From: Algoriphagus resistens
GTDB taxonomy: Bacteria > Bacteroidota > Bacteroidia > Cytophagales > Cyclobacteriaceae
Length of the DNA stretch: 64,000 nt
Reading direction: 5' to 3'
Assembly: GCF_001442615.1 (NCBI RefSeq)
Contig: NZ_LMXN01000003.1
Coordinates: 186,001 to 250,000, forward strand
Part shown: piece by piece, positions 20,645 through 52,955 of the stretch
Numbering within the stretch: the stretch's first letter is position 1
How the letters are laid out: every line of letters starts with the position of its first letter
Made by a program: the position numbers and the translations under genes
The notes under the pieces: generated by a model
Database searches by the model: none
What the model saw: only the letters and a program-made list of their open reading frames with translations
Told to the model about the DNA's origin: nothing

Positions 20645-21121
20645 TTACAAAGGAATCGCTAATCCTACCCTAAATCCGACTTCCCTTGGATATGGGCTCT
20701 GGTACCGAAATTCTGTACTAAGTCCTAAACCTTCAATTATTCGTATATACGCTCCAACGCCCACATTTGCTCCTTTTTGATTTCTTTTAGTCCCCGCACC
20801 GTCTGGCTGGGTATCTACCCATGTCTGGCTATAGCCTGCCATGAAATACAATTGAGATGGCCCATCTGATACGTAATAGCGCAGATCAGCACTTAAATTA
20901 CTTTCCTTGCCCACCTCTGGAAAAACAAATGTAAAACTTGGCATCAAAGCGAATTTGTCCACAAAGAAATATTCAATTCCTGCTCCGACCCCGAAATTAC
21001 TATATCTCAACCCGTAGGTTCCATAACCGTGAAAGCGAGCATTTCCCTGTTCTTGCGTTTGTGACAACGCGACAAAAGAGAGCATAAAAGCGGTGCAAAA
21101 AATAAAGAAACTCTTTTTCAT
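20645..21121 (-). CDS. Small outer-membrane beta-barrel protein
   Basis: 158 residues. A signal peptide ends near VALSQ. The mature part alternates aromatic and polar residues in strand-like segments (GTYGLRYSNFGVGAGIEYFF, SADLRYYVS, YFMAGYSQTW, GANVGVGAYIRI, GFRVGLAIPL), as in OmpA-type or porin-family eight-stranded barrels. Glycine-rich turns and a hydrophobic C-terminus fit. The specific role is unknown. Its start codon abuts the first copy of the start-codon repeat family, so the entire 5' leader of this gene is repeat sequence. Confidence 0.8.
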   Translation of the reverse strand: MKKSFFIFCTAFMLSFVALSQTQEQGNARFHGYGTYGLRYSNFGVGAGIEYFFVDKFALMPSFTFVFPEVGKESNLSADLRYYVSDGPSQLYFMAGYSQTWVDTQPDGAGTKRNQKGANVGVGAYIRIIEGLGLSTEFRYQSPYPREVGFRVGLAIPL

Positions 21122-21213
21122 GTGTTTATAATTTGTCTTTTAAGGGTCATATGGAATCTCGCATGCATAATAATCATCCCGGTGTGAGACGCTTGAGTCA
21201 TGCTCGATTTCAT
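21118..21213 (-). CDS. Putative 31-residue upstream ORF inside the repeat, ATGA-coupled to the barrel gene
   Basis: ATG at 21211-21213, stop TGA at 21118-21120 overlapping the downstream ATG (21119-21121). The peptide begins MKSSMTQASHTGMII and ends KRQIINT. The same frame, length and overlap are found in the copy at 38863-38958, with eight differing codons and no indel. Other copies of the repeat do not keep this frame, so translation is uncertain. Confidence 0.35.
   Translation of the reverse strand: MKSSMTQASHTGMIIMHARFHMTLKRQIINT
21119..21213 (-). repeat. Start-codon repeat family, copy 1 (full unit)
   Basis: A 95-bp unit running from one ATGAAA (21213) to the ATGAAA start of the barrel gene (21121). 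It contains in order ATGAAATCGAGCATG, CACCGGGATGATTAT, GCGAGATTCCATATGACC and AAAAGACAAATTATAA. About 90 percent identical to copy 3 at 38863. The bases just upstream (AAAATATAAACGC) again resemble the 3' end of a unit. Confidence 0.85.
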
Positions 21214-21373
21214 GCGTTTATATTTTGGTTTTTATAGGCCATAACCTCTCCCGATCCCGCACCTGATTGCCATGACAGGTGCGTTACATTCACCACAGGC
21301 AGCCTCAATTTCATTGGTCCGGATAATTGGCATTCGGCAAGAAATTAGCTGGTGCCAACTTAGAAAACAAATT

Positions 21374-22426
21374 TTAGGACATCAATTCTGCGACCTCATT
21401 TTTGTTTGCCAACTGCCCACAGGCTGCATCAATATCCTGTCCACGTGACTTTCGGACTTTAGCGATAATCCCCTGTGATTCCAACACACGCACATACATA
21501 TCCACAGCTTCCTGCTTCGCCTGACGGAATTCTCCTTCATCTATCGGGTTATATTGGATTAGGTTGACTTTGGACGGAATAATCTTACAGAATTTTGCCA
21601 ACGCCCGGGCATGAGGCTCATCATCATTAATACCATCCCAAATCACATATTCATAAGTAACCTTGCGTTTGGTTTTATCATACCAATATTTCAATGCTTC
21701 CCCCAATTCCTCCACAGGATTGCTGTCATTGATGGGCATTAGCCGTGATCGGGTTTCATTGATTGCTGAGTGAAGCGAAACAGCCAAGTTGAATCGGACT
21801 TCATCATCGGCGAGTTTACGGATCATTTTGGTTACTCCTACAGTAGAAAGAGTGATTCTTCTTGGAGCCATGCCAAGTCCTTCAGGTGAAGTGATTTTAT
21901 CAATTGCTTCAAGGACATTTGCGTAGTTGAGCAGGGGCTCTCCCATTCCCATAAAAACAATATTGGTAAGTGGTCGATTAAAGAATTTTTCAGCCTCATC
22001 CTTGATAGCCACTACCTGATCATAAATTTCATCAGGATTCAGATTTCGCATGCGTTTTAACCGCGCTGTCGCGCAAAAATTGCAATCCAGACTACAGCCC
22101 ACCTGAGATGAAACGCAGGCAGTAATCCTTTTGGTGGTCGGAATCAAAACTGACTCCACGATCTTATTGTCATAGAGCTTTACCGCATTTTTGATGGTGC
22201 CATCAGAAGAATGCTGCATCAAATCCACGAGAATGTGGTTGATTTCAAAATGAGCCTTGAGTATTTCCCTTGTGCTCAGCGATATATTGCTCATGTCATC
22301 GAAATTCTTCAGAGACTTATTCCAGAGCCATTCATAAACCTGCTTGGCCCGGAATTTTTTCTCACCATGAGCTAAAAAGAATTCTTCCAACTGTGTCAGG
22401 GAAAGCTTACGGATGTCCTTTTTCAT
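21374..22426 (-). CDS. rlmN: 23S rRNA A2503 / tRNA A37 C2-methyltransferase (radical SAM)
   Basis: 350 residues. The radical SAM cluster motif is C111-x3-C115-x2-C118 (VGCSLDCNFCATA). The two further catalytic cysteines of RlmN are visible: C104 (ITACVSSQ) and C336 (DIDAACGQLA), used for the methylated-cysteine mechanism. MGMGEPLLNY (SAM binding) and the S..VG and N.AVSLH segments are present. It methylates C2 of A2503 in 23S rRNA and A37 in some tRNAs. Its ATGAAA start is preceded by two tandem units of the start-codon repeat. Confidence 0.97.
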   Translation of the reverse strand: MKKDIRKLSLTQLEEFFLAHGEKKFRAKQVYEWLWNKSLKNFDDMSNISLSTREILKAHFEINHILVDLMQHSSDGTIKNAVKLYDNKIVESVLIPTTKRITACVSSQVGCSLDCNFCATARLKRMRNLNPDEIYDQVVAIKDEAEKFFNRPLTNIVFMGMGEPLLNYANVLEAIDKITSPEGLGMAPRRITLSTVGVTKMIRKLADDEVRFNLAVSLHSAINETRSRLMPINDSNPVEELGEALKYWYDKTKRKVTYEYVIWDGINDDEPHARALAKFCKIIPSKVNLIQYNPIDEGEFRQAKQEAVDMYVRVLESQGIIAKVRKSRGQDIDAACGQLANKNEVAELMS

Positions 22427-22527
22427 CTGATTATAAGTGTTTTAAAATGGTCAGATGGAATCTTTGACGATTAAAATAATCATTGCCCTGTGTGTTTTAA
22501 TGATGATTTTAATCGTGTCGATTTCAT
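22424..22527 (-). repeat. Start-codon repeat family, copy 2a (directly upstream of rlmN)
   Basis: From ATGAAATCGA at 22527 to the rlmN ATGAAA at 22426. Conserved blocks are CACACAGGGC-AATGATTAT, AGATTCCATCTGACC and a diverged AT-rich end, CACTTATAATCAG. The variable centre is a long hairpin (22468-22515). An indel breaks the 31-codon frame found in copies 1 and 3. Confidence 0.75.
22468..22515. other. Strong inverted repeat inside repeat unit 2a
   Basis: CGATTAAAAT (22468-22477) pairs perfectly with ATTTTAATCG (22506-22515). Inside this, CATT (22481-22484) pairs with AATG (22499-22502) after symmetrical 3-nt internal loops. The structure would sit in the rlmN leader RNA about 40 nt before the start codon. 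Confidence 0.7.
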
Positions 22528-22625
22528 ATGATAATTTGCTTTTAGCGGCCATATGGAATCTCGCACCACGTATAATCATGCCTCTGTCTGCCGCCAAGCA
22601 GGCTTGGTTTCTGAATTGATTCCAT
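22525..22625 (-). repeat. Start-codon repeat family, copy 2b (diverged)
   Basis: Runs from ATGGAATCA (22625) to the ATGAAATCGA that begins unit 2a. It keeps GGCATGATTAT, TGCGAGATTCCATATGGCC and AAAAGCAAATTAT. The centre is replaced by a GC-rich GCCTGCTTGGCGGC stem. With unit 2a it fills most of the 354-bp gap 22427-22780, the rest of which shows no gene. Confidence 0.7.
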
Positions 22626-38862: not shown

Positions 38863-38957
38863 ATGAAATCGAGCATGACTCAAGAGTCACACACTGGGAT
38901 GATTATTCACCATGCGAGATTCCATATGGCCTTTGAAAGACAAATTATAAACTCATG
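38863..38957 (+). repeat. Start-codon repeat family, copy 3 (full unit)
   Basis: The best-preserved unit, from ATGAAATCGAGCATG at 38863 to the ATGAAA of the lipoprotein gene at 38955. It holds a TGACTCAAGAGTCA hairpin, CACTGGGATGATTAT, GCGAGATTCCATATGGCC and AAAGACAAATTATAA in order. The sequence just before it (AATTTTATAACTG) resembles the unit's own 3' end. Confidence 0.88.
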
Positions 38958-38958
38958 A
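38863..38958 (+). CDS. Putative 31-residue upstream ORF inside the repeat, ATGA-coupled to the lipoprotein gene
   Basis: ATG at 38863, TGA at 38956-38958 overlapping the lipoprotein ATG at 38955. The peptide begins MKSSMTQESHTGMII, continues with HARFHM and ends RQIINS. Same length, frame and overlap as the ORF at 21118-21213. Eight codons differ, two of them silently. Expression unproven. Confidence 0.35.
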   Translation: MKSSMTQESHTGMIIHHARFHMAFERQIINS

Positions 38959-39317
38959 AAAGACAACTACTATTACTCAGCCTAATGGCAATGGCCATGT
39001 TCTCTTGCGATAAAAAAGAGGATGAAGATCCAGCTACCGCATGTGGCGTGAGCGACCCTGTTGAAAATCTTCCATGGCTAAAGTCAATGTCAGAAGAAGC
39101 TGCTTCAGATGAATTTACCCAGTACAGCTATATTGCACAAGCGATTTATAATGGAGAAACGGTATTTTACAATGGATCCTGTTGCCCAAATTGCAATTGG
39201 CAGTTAACCTTATATGATTGCTCTGGAAATGCTATAGAAAATGACTATTCTATAAGTGACCTTGAGAACAACACGGTAATTTGGCATCCTGAAAATTCAG
39301 TATGCGAATTTAACTAG
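38955..39317 (+). CDS. Small cysteine-rich lipoprotein
   Basis: 120 residues. The signal peptide ends in MFSC, with C18 as lipid attachment site, followed by an acidic DKKEDEDP linker. The mature part has five more cysteines (TACGV, SCCPNC, LYDCSG, SVCEF), suggesting disulfides or metal binding around SCCPNCNW. I do not recognise a function; similar short lipoproteins with a WLK..I / C.N...YDC pattern occur in Cytophagales. The complete 5' leader is copy 3 of the repeat, so its translation may depend on the 31-codon ORF. Confidence 0.75.
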   Translation: MKRQLLLLSLMAMAMFSCDKKEDEDPATACGVSDPVENLPWLKSMSEEAASDEFTQYSYIAQAIYNGETVFYNGSCCPNCNWQLTLYDCSGNAIENDYSISDLENNTVIWHPENSVCEFN

Positions 39318-50548: not shown

Positions 50549-52396
50549 CTATTTGCCGAAGAATGAATGAATACTGCTTAAATCTAATTTCACGAACGTT
50601 TTGTTCCCTCCCAATCCATAATTTGGATTTTGGCAGGCAAATAGATGTCCCACTAGGGTTTCCATTTCTTGAGAATTTAGTTTTTGTCCCTTTTTCAAAG
50701 ACGATTTTCGCGCCAAAGAACGCGCCAGATTTTCTCTGGTATCAAGAGAAAGCTCACTTTTGAAATGTTTATATTGTTCCAGAAGCCCTTCGAAAAGCTC
50801 CTTTTCGTTTTTGACGTGAATATCTGCGGGTACGCCCTGAATGAGTACGGTGTCTTTGCCAAACTCTGAAACCATAAAGCCCAAACTGTGGAGTTCTGGC
50901 ATGATATCCATCACCAATGCGTAATCGGAGGGGCCGAGATTGATGGTTGGAGGGAAAAGGCATTGCTGGGAGGTGCCTTGGGCAAGTTTCAGCTGACGCA
51001 AATAGCGCTCATAAAGAATCCGCTCATGCGCCGTCTGCTGATCAATGATCAGAAATCCTGTAGACATCTGGGCAACCACGTAGCTTAGCTCAACCTGGAA
51101 TGTAGTTCCGGTTGATTCGGTCACACTTGGCCTAGGAATGAACTCATTCGCATCATCGGGTTTAGCCCTGCTCTCAAACGTCAGAATTTCTGTTTCATCA
51201 GGTTGGACTGCGCGACTACTATTTCTGGTTGCCTGCGGGGTTCCTTCAAATAATTTTTCCCAGCCGGATGTGCTGGCCTGCTTGAATTCCGGGGTATTAA
51301 ATGATTTGTAGCTGTATTCACGATCCACCTGAGCCTTTTTCTCTGGATCGCTGTCCCATTTTTCATTAAAATTCACATCAAGACTAAAATCGAGTGAAGG
51401 GACGACATGATGCGCTCCCAATGCCTGTTTTACTGCTGATCGAATGACCGCATAGATAGTCCGTTCATCATCAAACTTGATTTCTGTTTTGGTGGGATGG
51501 ACATTGATATCGATATGTGTAGGATCTATTTCCAGGAAAAGCACGTAAAAAGGATGCTGATCCGGTTGCAATAAACCTTCGAAAGCAGAGCTTACAGCGT
51601 GATTCAGGTAGCTACTTTTAATGAAGCGGTTATTAACGAAAAAAAACTGCTCACCGCGGGTTTTCTTGGCATTTTCAGGTTTGCCTATATATCCTTTTAC
51701 ATTCACATGCGGTGTCAGTTCCTCGCATGGTACGAGTTGCCCTTGATAGTTTTTCCCAAAAATACCTACAATCCTTTGGCTGAGCTTGCCTGGCATGAGG
51801 TTGAATACTTCCAAGTCTTGCTGAAATAGAGAAAATCCGATTTCAGAATACGAAAGTGCTACCCGCTGGAATTCATCCACGATATGGCGCATTTCCACGG
51901 AATTTGATTTCAAGAAATTCCTACGTGCAGGGACATTGTAAAACAGGTTTTTCATTGAAACTGAAGTCCCTACATTTCCTGCAAATGGCTCCTGTTTTTT
52001 TACTTCAGACCCCTCGATCTGAATCCAGGTACCAAGCTCAGATTCAGCCTGTCGGGTCTTAAGTTCTACCTGTGCTACCGCAGCGATAGAGGCCAAAGCC
52101 TCCCCTCGAAATCCGAAAGTCCGGATTGAAAAAAGATCCGCAGAACTACGGATTTTGGAAGTCGCATGACGCTCAAAACTCATCCGCGCATCAATGGCGG
52201 ACATGCCCTTACCATTGTCTATCACCTGGATTAGCTGTTTCCCGGATTCTTTTACTACCACCTGCACTTGCGTTGCACCTGCATCTACGGCATTTTCAAG
52301 AAGTTCTTTGAGTGCGGAAGCAGGTCTTTGAACTACTTCTCCTGCTGCGATTTGATTGGCTATCGCATCGGGAAGGAGTTGGATAATATCACTCAT
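50549..52396 (-). CDS. mutL: DNA mismatch repair protein MutL
   Basis: 615 residues. GHKL ATPase domain with IAAGEVVQRPASALKELLENA (the N box E and N), DNGKGM, and FRGEALASIA. The transducer domain has NVHPTK, and the C-terminal dimerisation domain (about 420-615) follows a variable linker. The family endonuclease motif DQHA(X)2E(X)4E appears as DQQTAHERILYERYL (the usual histidine at the third position is Q). SCQ-like CPHGRP metal motif is replaced by ACQNPNYGLGG. Couples MutS recognition to strand removal. Start overlaps the stop of the small membrane protein gene by 8 bp. Confidence 0.96.
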   Translation of the reverse strand: MSDIIQLLPDAIANQIAAGEVVQRPASALKELLENAVDAGATQVQVVVKESGKQLIQVIDNGKGMSAIDARMSFERHATSKIRSSADLFSIRTFGFRGEALASIAAVAQVELKTRQAESELGTWIQIEGSEVKKQEPFAGNVGTSVSMKNLFYNVPARRNFLKSNSVEMRHIVDEFQRVALSYSEIGFSLFQQDLEVFNLMPGKLSQRIVGIFGKNYQGQLVPCEELTPHVNVKGYIGKPENAKKTRGEQFFFVNNRFIKSSYLNHAVSSAFEGLLQPDQHPFYVLFLEIDPTHIDINVHPTKTEIKFDDERTIYAVIRSAVKQALGAHHVVPSLDFSLDVNFNEKWDSDPEKKAQVDREYSYKSFNTPEFKQASTSGWEKLFEGTPQATRNSSRAVQPDETEILTFESRAKPDDANEFIPRPSVTESTGTTFQVELSYVVAQMSTGFLIIDQQTAHERILYERYLRQLKLAQGTSQQCLFPPTINLGPSDYALVMDIMPELHSLGFMVSEFGKDTVLIQGVPADIHVKNEKELFEGLLEQYKHFKSELSLDTRENLARSLARKSSLKKGQKLNSQEMETLVGHLFACQNPNYGLGGNKTFVKLDLSSIHSFFGK

Positions 52397-52802
52397 GCTT
52401 CTTCTTGGGTTTTAGCCTGAAGAAAAAATAGATGGCTGCTCCAAGTGCCACGGCGTATCCCATGTATTCAAATATCACAGGCCCTAAATATACATAACCG
52501 AATATAGAGCCCAATAGCAATAGAAAAATGAAGGTTCGGATCATTGCTGTAGAAGCGAACATAGTCACTCCGTCACGCGCTTTAATGCCTTTATGCTGCG
52601 CAAAAGACCCACGGATTCCAGCGCCATAAGATCCAATATCACGTGAAGTCATTTCATCGGTATCCAAAAGTCCCTGAGCTTCAAGATCTCTTTTGATTTG
52701 GGCAGTTCTGTGTTCGATCTCCTCCCTCACAGGATCATAATACCTAGGTTTGATATCAAATCTCATTGGAGTAGCAGTACGAAATACGGATGGGAATTTC
52801 AT
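52389..52802 (-). CDS. Small membrane protein upstream of mutL
   Basis: 137 residues from ATG 52800-52802. A longer frame of 157 residues begins at the ATG inside the adjacent repeat (52862) and is in frame because that repeat unit has a deletion. The N-terminal half is hydrophilic, with a DPVREEIEHRTAQIKRDLEA helix; residues about 83-130 contain two membrane helices and a lysine-rich end. I recall similar uncharacterised proteins next to mutL in other Bacteroidota. Overlaps mutL by 8 bp. Confidence 0.8.
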   Translation of the reverse strand: MKFPSVFRTATPMRFDIKPRYYDPVREEIEHRTAQIKRDLEAQGLLDTDEMTSRDIGSYGAGIRGSFAQHKGIKARDGVTMFASTAMIRTFIFLLLLGSIFGYVYLGPVIFEYMGYAVALGAAIYFFFRLKPKKKHE

Positions 52803-52862
52803 ATGATTATAATTTGTCTTTAAAAGGCCATATGGAATCTCGCACGCCATGCTCGATTTCAT
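52800..52862 (-). repeat. Start-codon repeat family, copy 4b (internally deleted)
   Basis: From ATGAAATCGAGCATG at 52862, directly to GCGAGATTCCATATGGCC, AAAGACAAATTATAA and the ATGAAA start at 52802. It lacks the central GGGATGATTAT block (about 33 bp deleted). The deletion puts its ATG in frame with the downstream gene. Confidence 0.85.
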
Positions 52863-52955
52863 GTGTTTCTATTTGATTTATTATGGTGCCATGGAATCTC
52901 GCAAGTAGGATAATCATCCCTGTGGGTGTGTTGGTTTCCACATGCTCGATTTCAT
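52860..52955 (-). repeat. Start-codon repeat family, copy 4a
   Basis: A tandem unit upstream of 4b. ATGAAATCGAGCATG at 52955, a TGG-AAA-CCA mini-hairpin, CACAGGGATGATTAT, TGCGAGATTCCATGGC, then a diverged AT-rich end and the ATGAAATCGA of unit 4b. One base longer than copy 3, so the 31-codon frame is lost (stop after 13 codons). The remaining gap 52956-53230 shows no gene. Confidence 0.82.

Follow-up and report, generated by a model that had tools for sequence, protein, structure and literature searches.

A family of short repeats in Algoriphagus resistens, a species of a genus placed in the Cyclobacteriaceae by GTDB, was found to end mostly on the start codons of protein genes. The units almost certainly represent a mobile element that is directed to start codons, and the best overall explanation is probably that of a small non-autonomous mobile DNA element for which start codons serve as safe harbours. 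Recent copies are 92 bases long (AATCGAGC...CAn'ATGA) and lie in one orientation directly 3' of ATGA, with ATGAAA being preferred. Non-autonomous insertion elements are a known kind; the behaviour seen here is not described in the openly licensed PMC papers searched, among which no account of a start-codon-directed repeat was found, which is weak evidence of absence.

Units in the window and their host genes

The window, i.e. the whole 64-kb stretch of DNA that was analysed, had been reported in a preliminary description to carry six related units at four loci, each locus ending at an ATGAAA start codon and oriented like the gene that follows. All six units were present at these places and all four loci end with a sense-direction ATGAAA start codon. 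A covariance model, trained on 37 units of the own genome including two from the window, matched positions 38863-38960 on the plus strand and 21116-21213, 52797-52862, 22522-22612 and 22421-22512 on the minus strand (E values from 3e-21 to 3e-4). The second unit at 52 kb (to 52955) was recovered by a nucleotide profile, and a seventh, degenerate unit, missed in the preliminary description, was added with nhmmer. A weak antisense match of the covariance model over the 38863 unit (25.6 bits, E 0.0099) is put down to the near-palindrome of this unit. The following features are distinguished:

38863..38960, plus strand: complete single unit; its ATGAAA end is the start of a lipoprotein-like gene (38955-39317)
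38876..38889, plus strand: variable left hairpin, here GACTC AA GAGTC; the stem covaries between copies
38914..38929, plus strand: most conserved core (GCGAGATTCCATATGG); its CCATnTG is the partner of the terminal CAn'ATG, its GATTcCAT a possible partner of the left ATGaAATC
21116..21213, minus strand: complete unit whose terminal ATGAAA begins a beta-barrel gene (20645-21121)
21208..21313, minus strand: degenerate, older unit that adjoins the 21116-21213 unit on its upstream side (nhmmer, 18.6 bits)
22522..22612, minus strand: divergent unit that lies 3' of CAGA in codon 6 of the ancestral rlmN coding sequence
22421..22525, minus strand: second rlmN unit; it belongs to a longer subfamily that has a 101-base period and a long additional stem
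22608..22625, minus strand: remnant of the original rlmN start, ATGGAATCAATTCAGAAA; the rlmN leader lies further upstream
52860..52955, minus strand: diverged unit, first of a pair, recognised by sequence and nucleotide profile
52797..52862, minus strand: unit with an internal deletion, in frame into the gene next to mutL

In the 38863-38960 unit, the frame opened by the left ATG closes with a TGA that overlaps the ATG of the lipoprotein-like gene (ATGA), and the left-ATG ORF of the 21116-21213 unit closes in the same kind of ATGA overlap. The ATG of the 22421-22525 unit now opens the longest rlmN ORF (21374-22426), and the right end of the 52797-52862 unit encodes the MKFP with which orthologues of the mutL neighbour begin. 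Pfam matches agree with the gene names given in the preliminary description, namely PF13505 for the barrel protein and PF21016 and PF04055 for RlmN; the lipoprotein-like gene yielded only a sub-threshold match to DUF6970 and the gene next to mutL had no Pfam match. Two gene starts had to be revised, as the longest ORF of the mutL neighbour starts inside the unit and the original rlmN start is located upstream of the units. The first 20 residues of this longest ORF (52389-52862) are element-derived, its orthologues starting at residue 21, and gene callers may produce similar false N-termini elsewhere.

Copy number and host range

The conserved 16-mer core, allowing up to two mismatches, occurs 181 times in the 6.13-Mb genome (6,129,475 bases in 43 contigs) and once in the form of the reversed pattern, so that chance is excluded as a cause; the covariance model produced at least 150 matches in the same genome. 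With one mismatch, the core was found in 15 of 38 genomes (some of low completeness), which are the own genome and 14 of the 23 others of the genus, and in none of the 14 genomes from other genera of the order. The covariance model matched 11 of 12 chosen Algoriphagus genomes, eight of them with 28 to 123 matches each and three with 4 to 10. Sampling the GTDB family with one genome per genus, own genome included, revealed at least one match in 20 of 60 genomes; 11 of these 20 had only one to three matches, and four family genomes (G055, G068, G071 and G082) contained between 39 and at least 69 each. In line with its origin in Algoriphagus, the window encodes an RlmN product that is, over the best segment, 96% identical to the counterparts in A. 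locisalis, A. winogradskyi and two others.

Among 20 fetched loci of G055, eight copies at different places were identical over all 92 bases, and G071 contained identical sets of four and three copies. These sets indicate that the family moved recently in both genomes. The element resembles classical bacterial MITEs in being short, non-coding, multi-copy and genus-wide and in lacking a transposase gene, but differs from them by the absence of terminal inverted repeats and target-site duplications. Carriage by phages was considered and rejected, as an exact 18-base core was absent from the viral contigs searched (viral_contigs).

Architecture, target and ends of the unit

The ends were analysed in 413 kb around the listed copies, a sample of the own genome with 218 units. 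These make up 143 chains: 87 have one unit, 42 two, 9 three and 5 four. The consensus of the 218 units is ATGAAATCGAGCATG-(variable hairpin)-CACACnnGGGATGATTAT-nnnn-CATGCGAGATTCCATnTG-(A/T-rich tail)-CAn'ATGAAA. The distance from ATG to ATG was 92 bases in 82, 91 bases in 31 and 90 bases in 15 of 155 measured units, single-base length changes being common. The complementary blocks ATGaAATC and GATTcCAT are not terminal at the right end and do not constitute terminal inverted repeats.

Of the 108 chains that lie on start codons, 107 end with ATGA on the right (96 of them with ATGAAA) and 73 have ATGAAA on the left, a pattern shared with IS200/IS605 elements, which insert directionally on the 3' side of a short fixed target. 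The 12 chains without ATGAAA on the right are followed by host codons (ATGAAT, ATGAAG, ATGAGA, ATGACA etc.), and their left end is still ATGAAATC in nine cases; these exceptions identify ATGA as the left target and assign the sequence after the right ATGA to the host. ATGAAA can be regarded as the preferred target because only 43 of 137 background gene starts with ATGA read ATGAAA. An A at position -1 is avoided (4 of 73 targets vs 15 of 43 background sites, p 1e-4). In two direct cases, CAGA in rlmN and AGGA in a filled locus (L404) compared with an empty one (L405), the target was not copied and the right end was still ATGA. It follows that no target-site duplication is made and that the right ATGA belongs to the element. 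The earlier proposal of one hexamer at both ends and of insertion at ATGAAA is therefore retained for the left side, where the target is ATGA with the consensus ATGAAA, and dropped for the right side. As the target is directional, the units share the orientation of the gene.

Upstream of recent units in G055 (L348, L349, L362), longer older relatives with extra G+C-rich hairpins and a common tail were seen by eye. That host leaders in general are made of element tails was rejected, since the tail motif was present in only 2 of 43 background ATGAAA starts.

Enrichment on start codons

In 108 of the 143 chains the end of the chain is exactly the ATG of a same-strand ORF of at least 60 aa. A start codon is here the first codon of a mechanically called ORF of this size, and a few may be internal Met codons. 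The other 35 chains comprise 7 on an ORF of 30-59 aa, 5 with another start within 80 bases and 23 with none. Start codons were likewise found under 27 of 33 chains in sister genomes (30 fetched loci). In other genera the counts were 17 of 21 chains (G055) and 15 of 21 (G071); an N or a contig end cuts two of the six G071 misses.

A rival explanation holds that the element inserts at random into ATGAAA and that harmful copies are merely purged, start codons being the places of least damage. The background for comparison was 400 kb in 20 stretches with mechanically called ORFs, possibly still including units. It contained 578 ATGAAA sites, of which 43 are called starts, 15 more lie in frame within 25 codons of one, 64 are intergenic, and 293 and 163 are located inside genes in sense and antisense direction, respectively. 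Most background sites are thus inside genes, where units are few, and units within genes do exist in two dead transposase copies and at codon 6 of rlmN, all of which fits purging. However, if every in-gene site were purged, the expected ratio of 58:64, as estimated from this 400-kb sample, would place 48% (58 of 122) on starts, while 76% was seen (odds ratio 3.4, Fisher p 2e-6). The same bias is visible in recent copies, with an ORF of at least 60 aa following 7 of the 8 identical G055 copies; in the identical G071 sets such an ORF follows 2 of four and 3 of three copies. Purging alone is accordingly judged a doubtful explanation. The enrichment at ATGAAA starts anticipated in the preliminary description was confirmed by these counts, and copies located mostly away from start codons, the outcome it had named as speaking against it, were not encountered among the fetched chains.

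Empty orthologous sites and the origin of chains

At rlmN, the starts of 53 orthologous loci (L061-L113, some from other genera; only 53 bases upstream for L103) had no detectable unit. Close relatives begin the gene with ATGGAAG(C/A)AATTCAGAAAAAAGACATCCG, while the window contains ATGGAATCAATTCAGAAA, two units and then AAGGACATCCG, and therefore the element entered codon 6. The old rlmN frame runs into a TAA within the first unit, and the ATG that opens the 350-aa longest ORF is supplied by the element; starts further inside are also possible. For the barrel gene, no unit was detected in 32 related starts that were aligned and also scanned with the model, some of which lie at other distances from rlmN and may be paralogues. 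Further searches covered relatives that include low-completeness genomes. They yielded a unit in none of 19 fetched orthologues of the lipoprotein-like gene, in 1 of 22 others for the mutL neighbour (G009) and, for coaD, a unit of another subtype in G021 only, among 20 other genomes fetched (23 found). At rsgA there was no model match in 23 other genomes, and unit-like remnants were recognised by eye in G019 and G021. Close to rlmN, a CcmD-family gene (PF20077) offers a clean pair with almost identical flanks, filled in A. oliviformis (L069) and empty in A. aestuariicola (L075); L065 and L071 are further filled loci, and L072 is partly filled. Units of differing sequence occupy this CcmD-family start in several species (L065, L069, L071, L072; L080 by eye only), a recurrent or old hot spot.

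Empty sites were seen at seven genes in total (rlmN, barrel, lipoprotein, mutL neighbour, coaD, rsgA and CcmD-family). For each of the four window genes, almost every relative examined has an empty orthologue; the units are therefore insertions, and the expectation that sister strains lack them proved mostly right. The host leader and the original start persist upstream of the unit, so the suggestion that the unit replaces the whole 5' leader was abandoned.

Chains could have formed by tandem duplication, and duplication through ATGAAA had been suggested as one possibility for the unit. Adjoining units (75 pairs) are identical at 65% of positions (0.649), compared with 68% (0.684) for random units of different chains. 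Neighbours are therefore no more alike than random pairs, which excludes tandem duplication and shows that chains arise by separate insertions into the ATGAAA of earlier units. The last unit scored above the first in 37 chains and below it in 17, with 2 ties (p 0.009), as if new copies favoured the ATG in use. Some sites are common to related species and the chains have a 92-base period, as might be expected of ancient conserved leaders or tandem minisatellites, the former being an alternative that the preliminary description itself had raised. The empty sites at seven genes and the dissimilarity of neighbours render this explanation extremely improbable, and the empty orthologous sites rule out a long-lived conserved leader.

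Folds and covariation

In the 37- and 218-unit alignments the left hairpin displays compensating changes, e.g. GACG/CGTC, GTTGC/GCAAC and GACTC/GAGTC. Its pairs 16-25, 17-24, 18-23 and 19-22 are formed in 151, 186, 137 and 96 units, respectively, as opposed to expected numbers of 101, 152, 93 and 65. Variation is scarce in the outer stem ATGaAATC..GCATG/CATGC..GATTcCAT; here pair 11-53 covaries (186 vs 148 expected), and the other eleven pair about as the make-up of the columns predicts. No separate conserved hairpin was detected at the right end, which instead contains a guide-like stem between the internal CCATnTG and the terminal CAn'ATG, with the start codon inside the stem. The variable pair of this stem (col64/col92) is Watson-Crick in 135 of 218 own-genome units vs 84.5 expected, a number that none of 2000 shuffles reached. 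Outside the own genome it is Watson-Crick in 27 of 29, 31 of 34 and 34 of 43 units (92 of 106, counted over units with both motifs), and among the 89 distinct sequences elsewhere 75 match, with a shuffled mean of 31.6 and a maximum of 45.

The left ATG, too, is faced by the CAT of CCATnTG. Between the host base at -1 and the guide base there is no covariation (46 of 165 Watson-Crick, 52.7 expected), which counts against a simple two-sided guide. Neither this base nor the outer stem, bar one pair, covaries, so the case for a guide that reads the left target depends on bases that hardly vary. One common fold for complete units was rejected: RNA z-scores ranged from -0.06 to -2.28 for six type-1 units and from 0.04 to -1.68 for three further units, and only the long subfamily folds clearly. 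This 101-base subfamily (22421-22525 in the window and similar units) carries a long extra stem and an internal ATGA and has a z-score of -4.4 vs shuffles, both as RNA and as DNA.

Leader frame and expression of the host gene

Read from the host ATG, a standard unit encodes MKSSMT..SHTGMI...ARFHM...RQII..* and terminates in a TGA that shares bases with the new ATG (ATGA). This frame could be followed in 158 of the 218 units, where it ends within 16 bases of the new start in 104, is open or fused in 4 and stops earlier in 50. The frame is thus kept in 108 of 158 units (0.684), compared with a mean of 0.599 in gap-preserving shuffles, none of 300 being as high; the shuffles ignore the kinship of the copies, and relatedness could be the cause of the excess. 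Variability at codon positions 1, 2 and 3 was 0.157, 0.210 and 0.157 outside the hairpin and 0.159, 0.166 and 0.200 in the core. Peptide function as the main constraint was rejected, since position 3 is slightly freer only in the core and the length often changes by one base. In G071, the copies of the two largest identical sets are three bases shorter, yet their ATGA overlap is intact; in the eight identical G055 copies the frame stops 20 bases before the new ATG. From these patterns of weak constraint, we take the leader frame to be helpful and not required. The A/T-rich tail may serve fresh initiation, and a Shine-Dalgarno sequence is seemingly dispensable for initiation in Bacteroidetes (PMC6728339). 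Reinitiation or initiation on the tail would be fairly likely to keep the host gene on. A promoter function was rejected: the TAnnTTTG box is present in none of the 108 start-codon chains, and it occurs within 100 bases upstream of the first unit in 10 of 108 and in 5 of 108 in-gene controls.

Alternatively, the host might retain the unit as a leader-peptide module or regulatory RNA in which the CCAUnUG/CAn'AUG stem hides the new start and translation of the leader ORF from the old start codon opens it. The gene would then be under control by coupling, with spread being mobile and retention adaptive. Such a module would account for the terminal AUG inside a covarying stem, for the leader frame kept or open above the shuffled level, for the ATGA overlap retained in the shortened G071 sets and for the excess on start codons over the purging expectation. 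It appears unlikely in view of host genes that share no evident function, sites that are empty in nearly all relatives, third codon positions that are not clearly freer and a frame statistic blind to the kinship of copies. Furthermore, copies that spread recently covary strongly, which is what the needs of the element itself would predict; the overlap is missing from the eight identical G055 copies, and Rfam yielded no match at gathering score in the window.

Search for the mobilising enzyme

Y1_Tnp exceeded the cut-off in 31 of 38 genomes searched, own genome included and some of low completeness. In G014 it was absent at E<=0.001, despite 86 model matches to the unit. Three of the five Y1 matches in the own genome were read and had no unit, their ends differing by eye. 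A unit was located at one (L148) of 16 Y1 loci (L141-L156) and near three (L388, L404, L405) of 23 Y1 loci from five loaded genomes. An autonomous IS with matching ends was not found at any of these three groups of loci, and no Y1/IS605 partner could be tied to the family there.

Several of these loci deserve description. L404 and L405 (G071) contain two copies of a dead RAYT-type transposase gene with a unit at the same mid-gene ATGAAA, and L404 has a further unit just before the start of the transposase gene, at a site that is empty in L405. L148 (1200-2300, G009) encodes a Y1/RAYT protein with other repeats near (..GGTTGGTAG..) and one antisense unit abutting the 3' end. IS605-type TnpA/TnpB pairs are found in the own genome at C6:53685 and C42:73011, with OrfB at C6:54674 and C42:73972; downstream of the C6 TnpA gene lies a hairpin (CCCATCCACG..ATGGATGGG) unlike the unit.

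Mobilisation by a domesticated TnpA_REP encoded elsewhere, as for the REP/REPIN repeats and their RAYT enzymes, would agree with units that are short, dispersed, directional, present in more than 150 copies and equipped with a hairpin. Both are palindromic, of high copy number and presumably moved in trans, Y1_Tnp genes are common (31 of 38 genomes), and one unit abuts such a gene in G009. Nevertheless, a GTAG or CGTC tag at the foot of the palindrome is not conserved in the 218-unit consensus, CGTC occurring only as one variable hairpin arm, and a RAYT gene flanked by units was not found, the neighbours being isolated ones (L148, L388, L404, L405). The G009 gene has other repeats nearby by eye, and G014 has no detectable Y1_Tnp. 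Moreover, the element sits on start codons in same-orientation chains, whereas REPs are described as extragenic (PMC3733652, PMC2817692). A REP/RAYT-type system is for these reasons regarded as rather improbable.

Proposed mechanism and related elements

The explanation preferred here, a non-autonomous mobile element harboured by start codons, would involve the following steps. Single-stranded element DNA would fold, and the internal CCAT guide would pair with the left target ATG as well as with the right-end ATG and so set the cleavage sites, as in IS200/IS605 elements; an HUH/Y1-type or other enzyme would act in trans. Landing on ATGA would regenerate a start codon, which is what would make start codons a safe harbour. 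The frame of the host ATG would enter the element and, in most testable copies, end at or just before the new ATG, so that ribosomes would translate the gene either after reinitiating or by starting afresh on the A/T-rich tail.

By analogy, a single-strand mechanism like that of IS200/IS605 is possible, if somewhat short of probable. These elements insert 3' of a short target without duplication, their cleavage sites being set by guide pairing (PMC8266576, PMC4227781), and the unit shares with them the directional insertion 3' of a short fixed target, the absence of target-site duplication, a hairpin near one end and a candidate internal guide. It differs by being only 92 bases long, by lacking a gene, by a target that coincides with start codons and by the want of an autonomous IS with matching ends among the loci searched. 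No transposase could be tied to the family at the loci searched, and in L404 and L405 the unit interrupts a dead transposase gene. The sequence of the left hairpin is variable, whereas IS200/IS605 transposases contact their palindromes (PMC8266576). Integration next to ATGA or GTGA is also known for HEARO/IscB elements. An ORF of IscB size does not fit into 92 bases, Rfam found nothing in the window, and the main text of the HEARO/IscB paper (PMC9755519) contains no ATGA.

Like IStrons, which combine a group I intron with IS200/IS605 or IS607 and render their own insertion into genes harmless (PMC4227781), the element would spare its host. IStrons splice out of the RNA, whereas the element, as read here, stays in the RNA and regenerates the start codon. 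Rickettsia palindromic elements likewise are small, carry an open frame and reside within genes (PMC10969869), and the 52797-52862 unit gives a similar in-frame extension. They insert in frame within ORFs, whereas the present element targets start codons and its frame usually ends at or before the new ATG, only 4 of 158 testable units being open or fused.

Implications

The interpretation given in the preliminary description is, as a whole, partly supported. We tentatively propose a selfish element that uses the start codon as its attachment site, one CCAT guide reading both the target ATG and the ATG of its own end, with each insertion giving a new start, often overlapped by the stop of the old frame. 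The element could therefore pile up on the same genes. Mobile elements are known to limit the harm to their hosts in several ways: some stay away from genes, some use sites such as terminators or tRNA genes, and others are spliced out. To land on a start codon and restore it would be a further way, and one that can be tested, as the bacteria can be cultured. The filled leaders provide a natural series of 5' leaders for the study of initiation and reinitiation. An uncounted share of annotated N-termini and gene leaders in the Cyclobacteriaceae would be element-derived, e.g. the 20 residues at the beginning of the longest ORF of the mutL neighbour. If the proposal is true, the piled-up element rewrites host leaders and N-termini over evolutionary time.
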